DNA of 64,000 nt from Paracoccaceae bacterium (GTDB lineage Bacteria; Pseudomonadota; Alphaproteobacteria; Rhodobacterales; Rhodobacteraceae). A model generated the notes under the pieces. That model was not told the DNA's origin and did not search any database. It saw only the letters and a program-made list of their open reading frames with translations. Shown piece after piece: positions 12,922 to 14,216 of the stretch. Location of the stretch: positions 1 through 64,000 of the forward strand of contig SKIF01000014.1 of assembly GCA_007116575.1 (NCBI GenBank). The letters are read 5' to 3'. A program made the position numbers and the translations under genes. The stretch's first letter is position 1. Each line of letters opens with the position of its first letter.

Positions 12922-13341
12922 TCATTCTTGCCTCGGCGGTGTTGCGCGCAGCGCCTTGACCCCTGCCCTATGCGCCTTTGCCTCCAGCCGCCGTCGTTTG
13001 CTCGCAAGCGTCGGGCGGGTCGCAATACGTGGCTTCGGCCGCTCACAGGCTTTCAGGACCAGTTCCGCAAGCCGTGCGCGCGCAATCTCGCGGTTGCGCG
13101 CCTGGCTGCGCGTCTCTTCCACACGCAAAACCAGCGCGCCGCCCTCGGTCCAGCGCCGCCCCGCCAGCCGCTTCAGCCGCGTCTTGACCGGTGCTGGCAG
13201 GCTGGGGCTGCGCTCGGCCTCGAAGCGCAATTCCACCGCCGTCGCGACCTTGTTGACATTTTGTCCCCCCGGCCCCGAGGCACGCGAGAAACTTTCGGTC
13301 AGTTCCCATTCCTGCAACGTGATCTGGTCGTTGATCCGCAT
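12922..13341 (-). CDS. arfB: Alternative ribosome-rescue factor / aminoacyl-tRNA hydrolase ArfB (YaeJ)
   Basis: SFSRASGPGGQNVNKVATAVELRF GGQ-containing RF domain with basic C-terminus, 139 aa. Confidence 0.9.
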   Translation of the reverse strand: MRINDQITLQEWELTESFSRASGPGGQNVNKVATAVELRFEAERSPSLPAPVKTRLKRLAGRRWTEGGALVLRVEETRSQARNREIARARLAELVLKACERPKPRIATRPTLASKRRRLEAKAHRAGVKALRATPPRQE

Positions 13342-13367
13342 AACTCTTAACCGCGCCGGGAATCGAA

Positions 13368-13392
13368 AGGGCCGCCAGTGAGGGGCGGCCCT
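13368..13392 (-). terminator. Terminator-like hairpin
   Basis: AGGGCCGCC-AGTGAGG-GGCGGCCCT, 9-bp stem; short TTTC on the minus strand. Confidence 0.5.
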
Positions 13393-13465
13393 AAACGAGC
13401 TTCAGGAGATGGACCCAAATTAGAGCCTTGGCCCAATCAGAAGAGTGTTCCCCTAAGGGCTGCCG

Positions 13466-13522
13466 TCAGGTTCTTGCTCCTCTGACTGTCTTTGCACCGC
13501 TCTCCAACATCACTCTAGACAC
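13466..13522 (-). CDS. Candidate 18-aa small protein (MSRVMLESGAKTVRGART) or conserved leader/ncRNA element
   Basis: GTG start 7 nt after AGGAGG within GAAAGGAGGTGGTCC; not in the supplied ORF track; hairpin downstream; TTGACA about 60 nt upstream. Confidence 0.35.
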   Translation of the reverse strand: MSRVMLESGAKTVRGART

Positions 13523-13592
13523 TGGACCACCTCCTTTCATTGAGTTTCTGATAGGACGATGGTGGCACAGATTTAGTGTTTGTCAAAAGAAA

Positions 13593-14216
13593 TCATGCGA
13601 CAGGTTGCGTCATTTTGGCAACGATCAGGCGAAATGGCGCCAAAGCAAGCAGGGCCAGGGCCAGTTTCACCCCCCAGTCGGCGACGGCAAGACTGACCCA
13701 GAGCGGAACCTCCGGACCAAAACCCAGCATTGGCAGGATTTCTCCGGCCCAGGAAACATCATTGCCGGGCTCGATAAAGGCCAGCGAGGCCGAGAAGGCG
13801 ATGCTGAAAAACAAGGCAGTATCGACTGCAGACCCGATCAGGGTAGAGCCCAGCGGCGCACGCCACCAGCGGCCTTCGCGCAGGCGGTCGAAGACGAACA
13901 CATTCAGCATCTGGGCCGTCAGGAAGGCGATCCCCGACCCCAGCGCAATGCGCAGTGTCACCAACGGGCCAAACTCGCCGATGATCTGCGTGCCGATCAG
14001 CGAACAGGCCACCCCGACGGCGAAACCGACCCAGACCACCCGGCGCGCGGCCTGCGGGCCATAGACCCGGTTCATTACATCATTGACCAGAAAGGCCAGC
14101 GGATAGGTAAAGGCGCCCCAGGTCAGCCAGTTTCCGAACAGGAACTGAACGAGGATATTGGAGGCCACGACAATGGCCGCCATGGCAAGAATGCCGGGCA
14201 GATAAGTGCGGGTCAT
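13593..14216 (-). CDS. Queuosine precursor transporter (YhhQ/VUT family)
   Basis: VVASNILVQFLFGNWLTWGAFTYPLAFLVNDVMNRVYGPQAARRVVW; YhhQ/DUF165-type membrane protein. Confidence 0.85.
   Translation of the reverse strand: MTRTYLPGILAMAAIVVASNILVQFLFGNWLTWGAFTYPLAFLVNDVMNRVYGPQAARRVVWVGFAVGVACSLIGTQIIGEFGPLVTLRIALGSGIAFLTAQMLNVFVFDRLREGRWWRAPLGSTLIGSAVDTALFFSIAFSASLAFIEPGNDVSWAGEILPMLGFGPEVPLWVSLAVADWGVKLALALLALAPFRLIVAKMTQPVA

Follow-up and report, generated by a model that had tools for sequence, protein, structure and literature searches.

Judged by its sequence, the region between yhhQ and arfB in the window (the whole 64,000-nucleotide stretch of Paracoccaceae DNA analyzed here) is an autonomous small gene lying between two ordinary genes. 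It is related, at some distance, to the RNA family CC2171 (Rfam RF01867). We consider it fairly probable that what selection keeps in this gene is the translation of a short reading frame and not the peptide made from it, and that in Rhodobacteraceae the RNA would exist in a closed and a ribosome-opened form. The predicted transcript (~175–190 nt) extends from a promoter-type block of its own to a strong terminator ending at 13366, and its features are listed in Table 1.

Table 1. Features of the element and of its flanking genes, in window coordinates
Feature	Sequence	Positions	Strand	Remarks
yhhQ (vitamin/queuosine-precursor transporter family, PF02592)		13593..14216	minus	upstream context
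Promoter block	TTTTGACAAACACTAAATCTGTGCCA	13563..13588	minus	-35 TTGACA at 13586-13581; sequence
Extended Shine-Dalgarno (SD) block	GAAAGGAGGTGGTCCAG	13538-13522	minus	complementary to last 17 nt of 16S rRNA, one G-U
Mini-ORF	MSRVMLESGAKTVRGART	13522..13466	minus	GTG 13522-13520, TGA 13468-13466, 18 codons
Start-codon hairpin	TCCAGTGTC / GATGTTGGA region	13503..13526	minus	pairs kept in 80-86 of 86 Rhodobacteraceae
Central hairpin	ACAGTC...GATTG	13433..13489	minus	spans ORF end; compensatory changes
Internal anti-SD (16S-tail mimic)	TTGGGTCCATCTCC	13405..13418	minus	core CATCTCC 13411-13405, pairs with GGAGGTG
Intrinsic terminator	GGGCCGCC...GGCGGCCCTTT	13391-13366	minus	then CCCTTT; sequence
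arfB (RF-1 domain ribosome rescue factor, PF00472)		12922..13341	minus	downstream context

The original prediction had noted a match to the 16S 3' end at 14 of 15 positions. This match is real, lies on the minus strand and is longer than first described, since it covers 17 nt with one G-U pair: GAAAGGAGGTGGTCCAG differs from the complement of the 16S tail (CTGGATCACCTCCTTTC) at one position, where A is changed to G and pairing is retained. The window's own assembly has no readable 16S copy, and the reference tail was taken from another genome of the same family (G045, two copies with 0 mismatches), because an RF00177 covariance search of seven genomes gave no 16S, seemingly having missed it. 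When up to three mismatches to the complement of the tail were allowed, one match was found in the window versus 0.16 expected, and a scan of the whole assembly detected no second site with fewer than three mismatches. In pattern searches and alignments the block was near-invariant across Alphaproteobacteria. A chance SD-like match was ruled out by the expected number, by the uniqueness of the site in the assembly and by the class-wide pattern matches. The GTG is located at normal SD spacing from the block.

Searches with 159 bases of the element (blastn) detected it in 202 of the 298 family genomes searched, nearly always as a single copy, which ruled out a single-strain artefact. Its core pattern was also found in many other families of Alphaproteobacteria. 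With one mismatch allowed, a 20-base pattern from the 5' block occurred in 51 of 86 alphaproteobacterial genomes and in none of 213 genomes from other classes of the phylum. An exact 27-base pattern gave at least 120 matches in public genomes, and those listed include Methylobacterium, Bosea, Microvirga, Brevundimonas, Acetobacteraceae, Rhodospirillales and others; the element reaches AT-rich alphaproteobacterial genomes of less than 2 Mb. Two loci from the first pattern search (L035 and L039) were set aside, as they resemble ordinary SDs of other genes. The original prediction, which had made its case depend on conservation outside close strains, survives strongly in this respect, the element being spread through Alphaproteobacteria. 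One copy (L112) was located on a contig of a metagenome-assembled genome labelled Ramlibacter, a betaproteobacterial genus, and is probably mis-binned alphaproteobacterial DNA.

The RF01867 model matched the window over its full length (model positions 1–159 of 159) with 29.4 bits and an E-value of about 1e-4; this score is below the gathering score of 75, and the element is not a formal member of the family. At E <= 0.001, matches were found in 61 of 289 genomes of the class, only 9 of which reached the gathering score, and scores over the class ran from 90.5 down to 27 bits without a clear break. It is on account of the full-length match below the cut-off and the unbroken range of scores that we treat the element as a divergent relative. 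With the cut-off at 75 bits most of the family goes unseen, lower scores forming a continuum. The element and CC2171 have in common the 5' block (GAAAGGAGGUGAUCCAGUGUCU, bar one A to G), the 3' intrinsic terminator stem and the status of a separate intergenic gene. However, the long-range CAUUGUC/GACAAUG helix of CC2171 could not be aligned in the window, where the SD:anti-SD pairing closes the structure instead, and Rfam treats CC2171 as non-coding, while the element has a conserved mini-ORF. Two or three RF01867-like matches were seen in some genomes (G309, G572 and G565; L239, L234), and in G309 the core pattern occurs twice, which suggests paralogues. Previous RNA-seq showed a product of ~215 nt at a CC2171-annotated locus of Mesorhizobium huakuii (PMC5596092). 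In the literature searched we found no description of an ORF or a function for CC2171, and the accessible portions of sRNA surveys in Ruegeria and Paracoccus provided no link to the element. An assignment to the Caulobacter sponge RNA was rejected, as that sponge is CrfA.

The TTGACA expected just after the yhhQ stop is present, seven bases past it. TTGAC was found in 80 of 92 Rhodobacteraceae loci versus 4 in shuffled upstream sequence, mostly 46–50 bases upstream of the SD block and with the Rhodobacteraceae consensus tTTTGACAaACaCaAaATcTGTGcCA. We infer that a TTGACA-type promoter is used; inspection of the promoter block in the window revealed no clear -10 box. Directly behind TTGACA, Rhodobacteraceae relatives have a CACA-N5-TGTG inverted repeat, possibly an operator. 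At the other end, the predicted 9-bp hairpin proved to be the intrinsic terminator, whose stem pairs are kept in 70–86 of 86 Rhodobacteraceae sequences with many compensatory changes.

Behind the SD block, the 18-codon GTG...TGA frame is present on the minus strand as described. To follow it among relatives we used three groups, namely 92 Rhodobacteraceae copies, 111 other alphaproteobacterial copies and 40 divergent copies, the last picked by RF01867 score and not by ORF. A stop is located exactly at codon 19 in 87 of the 92 Rhodobacteraceae copies (TGA 48, TAG 22, TAA 17), and TGG does not occur there (p = 2e-10 under independent columns, a figure that relatedness makes optimistic). Over codons 18–35, a frame-0 stop was found in 99%, 99% and 100% of the three groups, respectively, versus 17–32% of copies in the two other frames. 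In the 40 divergent loci the start codon keeps its position relative to the SD block (ATG 28, GTG 8, TTG 4). An in-frame ATG at 13540, which would give 24 codons, was discarded as the start because it occurs in just 8 of the 92 relatives, whereas the GTG is kept. Start codon, reading frame and stop are conserved beyond chance both in Rhodobacteraceae and in the other alphaproteobacterial groups and, on this comparison of sequences, the mini-ORF is probably translated. It should be noted that a Caulobacter ribosome profiling study reported intergenic ncRNAs as a group to be untranslated; CC2171 is not named in the accessible part of that report (PMC4117421), whose general statement counts against translation of the mini-ORF.

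For the peptide, no selection beyond that of frame-shifted controls was detected. The pN/pS ratio in frame (0.65–0.85) resembled that of shifted frames (0.73–1.14), the ranges overlapping, and no third-position excess was found in the per-codon variation of Rhodobacteraceae copies; the codon-position bias that had been suggested as a check is thus not seen. In subsets of 21 and 24 codons, frame-0 pN/pS was lower than in shifted-frame controls, and for this reason there may be weak selection on the peptide. Beyond Met-Ser, the peptides of the different groups have nothing recognisable in common, with a loose consensus, MSHC(H/L)xPRSxxxxTWIxASxxxxxA, recurring within one large group. A known protein family was ruled out, as a Pfam and NCBIfam search of the mini-ORF peptides matched none. 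In some Bosea-type copies (L056, L062), the RNA run GACCTGGAC or GGCCTGGAC is conserved while the frame over it is shifted, and the total ORF length is still 25 codons. An apical motif like GGAGCAACCTC was seen near the ORF end in L245, L249, L261–L264, L268, L269 and L273; its form in Rhodobacteraceae is GGGCAGCCC, and it is read in different frames among copies. The best reading of these data is that selection would keep translation of the frame, with no detectable constraint on the peptide. Of the small protein of leaderless style that was once proposed here, the probable translation therefore stands, and the leaderless start and the selected peptide do not.

Pairing between GGAGGTG and CATCTCC (pairs 5–11) is kept in 82–86 of 86 Rhodobacteraceae sequences per pair. 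Like the counts for the hairpin and the terminator, these were obtained from an L-INS-i alignment of 86 Rhodobacteraceae elements, which was used for the SD:anti-SD pairs because another MAFFT alignment (A1) misplaces the CATCTCC strand in some rows. In that alignment the central hairpin and the terminator show many double changes. A separate alignment of 46 sequences had compensatory double changes at 17 of 32 predicted pairs. Overall, such changes are concentrated in these two elements, those in the SD helix being mostly one-sided. An upstream CCACC, earlier named as the partner of the SD, is unlikely to have this role, as it sits in the expected promoter and relatives conserve the downstream CATCTCC instead. 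In predicted Rhodobacteraceae folds the SD core is almost fully paired; in predicted folds from outside Rhodobacterales, its GGA is mostly paired and the rest of the core is largely open. Only in Rhodobacteraceae was the 3' half clearly more complementary to the SD than shuffled RNA. Thus, SD masking is a feature of this lineage, and class-wide masking was ruled out. The class-wide features are the SD block, the mini-ORF, a structured 3' part and the terminator.

Of 91 Rhodobacteraceae loci, 85 have yhhQ as the upstream gene, in the same orientation. Downstream, behind the terminator, 66 of 89 loci have arfB, again in the same orientation, and the other 23 lack it. The distance from the terminator T-run to arfB is 24 bases in the window; in relatives with arfB, the gene starts mostly 7–100 bases, and often as few as 7–60 bases, past the terminator. 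As this gap leaves little room for a promoter, readthrough may matter locally. Between 13341 and 13366 of the window, arfB has no evident SD behind the strong terminator. Outside Rhodobacteraceae, tblastn linked neither yhhQ nor arfB to the element. In other orders the neighbors vary by lineage and the downstream gene is unrelated; among named loci with a downstream gene called, that gene runs opposite to the element in 71 cases and in the same direction in 37. Judged by eye, Microvirga loci (L072, L074 and others) have a divergent release-factor-3-like GTPase gene as neighbor, and Bosea loci (L056, L057 and others) an RNase R-like gene downstream. The survey of neighbors across the class showed no class-wide link to translation genes. 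Because conserved neighbors are limited to Rhodobacteraceae, the element is not basically an arfB leader, and a cis effect on arfB is at most a local addition. The idea of a regulatory leader for arfB, part of the original prediction, is thus consistent with the majority of Rhodobacteraceae loci, but not with those that have no arfB or with the other orders.

The most likely function, as far as it can be predicted from these features, is that of a ribosome-responsive RNA switch. We favor it because start and stop are kept without detectable selection on the peptide and because a stronger SD is hard to conceive of. The extended SD would capture 30S subunits, which would initiate on the mini-ORF (18 codons in the window, 18–35 elsewhere) and bring about translation that ends near the apical hairpin. 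As the Rhodobacteraceae RNA, when free, would cover its SD and start codon with the internal 16S-tail mimic, ribosome binding and RNA folding would be mutually exclusive and the RNA would be either closed or opened by the ribosome. Either the state itself or a 3' half that the ribosome has freed might then serve regulation tied to ribosome availability. Candidate outputs are action of the 3' half in trans, titration of initiation capacity and, in Rhodobacteraceae, readthrough into arfB. The SD that is predicted to be open in other groups would argue against a masking switch throughout the class. A broader version, in which ribosomes with an intact tail would open and translate a peptide-independent mini-ORF in all these bacteria, thereby reporting free 30S subunits or initiation capacity, and the opened RNA would act in trans on translation (by the freed anti-SD in Rhodobacteraceae), is conceivable but doubtful.

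Several other explanations have to be weighed against the switch. If the RNA were simply the mRNA of a very short functional protein, with its fold controlling translation, then the optimal SD and the conserved start, frame and stop would be expected, and the loose consensus of one large group could reflect such a protein. However, the complete divergence of the groups past Met-Ser, a pN/pS resembling that of shifted frames, the GACCTGGAC-type runs that are kept as RNA while the frame shifts, and the lack of a Pfam or NCBIfam family make this quite improbable. A small chance of the same order is given to a non-coding decoy or sponge of the 16S tail, acting on 30S subunits or on C-rich anti-SD small RNAs, with the ORF incidental. 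The near-invariant 17-nt complementarity across the class, the partly open SD block in predicted folds outside Rhodobacterales and the filing of RF01867 as a non-coding sRNA are in line with it. Yet a decoy needs neither a start alternating between ATG, GTG and TTG nor a TGA, TAG or TAA stop at a fixed place, and the Rhodobacteraceae RNA masks its own block. What remains of the anti-SD decoy RNA initially suggested is a widespread, structured RNA that could bind the 16S tail; a pure decoy leaves the conserved start and stop unexplained.

Two further possibilities are unlikely, if less so. In Rhodobacteraceae, the element could serve arfB as a cis leader or attenuator, with translation of the mini-ORF setting terminator readthrough; this may coexist with the switch. 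The frequent same-strand arfB and the short gap before it fit this proposal; the Rhodobacteraceae loci that keep the element without arfB, the missing shared neighbor and mostly convergent next gene in other orders, and the fact that no anti-terminator pairing was identified do not. It is no more probable that we are dealing with a conventional trans-acting sRNA that base-pairs with mRNAs and whose short ORF serves mainly turnover. Such an RNA would be, as here, about 175 nt long, intergenic and structured, with its own promoter-like block and terminator, and the description as small coding RNAs has been given to other sRNAs of Alphaproteobacteria, Pos19 among them (PMC5036791). However, apart from the SD block, no conserved unpaired seed was recognised.

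The ribosome-responsive switch favored here has partial parallels among known systems. Pos19 of Rhodobacter sphaeroides is likewise a small autonomous RNA with a short ORF (PMC5036791), and we claim no homology; what distinguishes the element from small coding RNAs of this type is its maximal 16S complementarity and class-wide spread. Unusually long pairing with the 16S tail likewise serves translation control in the extended SDs of rpsU in Flavobacteriales (PMC9976891) and of Staphylococcus aureus (PMC13009471), but these precede ordinary genes, whereas the present SD belongs to a stand-alone transcript with 18–35 codons and no conserved peptide. Leader peptides and attenuators also combine a short ORF of little peptide conservation with overlapping RNA folds and a terminator. 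Unlike them, the element has no conserved downstream gene, arfB being present in only part of one family.

The RNA family is already known by name, in Caulobacter and, by annotation, in Mesorhizobium. Within the literature searched, the class-wide spread of CC2171-type RNA appears to be new, as do the occurrence of a Rhodobacteraceae form that closes by a different fold and mimics the 16S tail and, in CC2171-type RNA, a mini-ORF that seems to be under selection. What has been listed as a non-coding sRNA of Caulobacter is a widespread alphaproteobacterial gene whose frame is apparently translated and whose peptide is seemingly irrelevant. Translation for its own sake is normally found in leaders with a downstream gene and is unusual in a stand-alone RNA. 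The annotation of RF01867, both its cut-off and its coding status, needs revising, and the element provides a ready test case for the question of whether bacteria monitor the state of their ribosomes through RNA.
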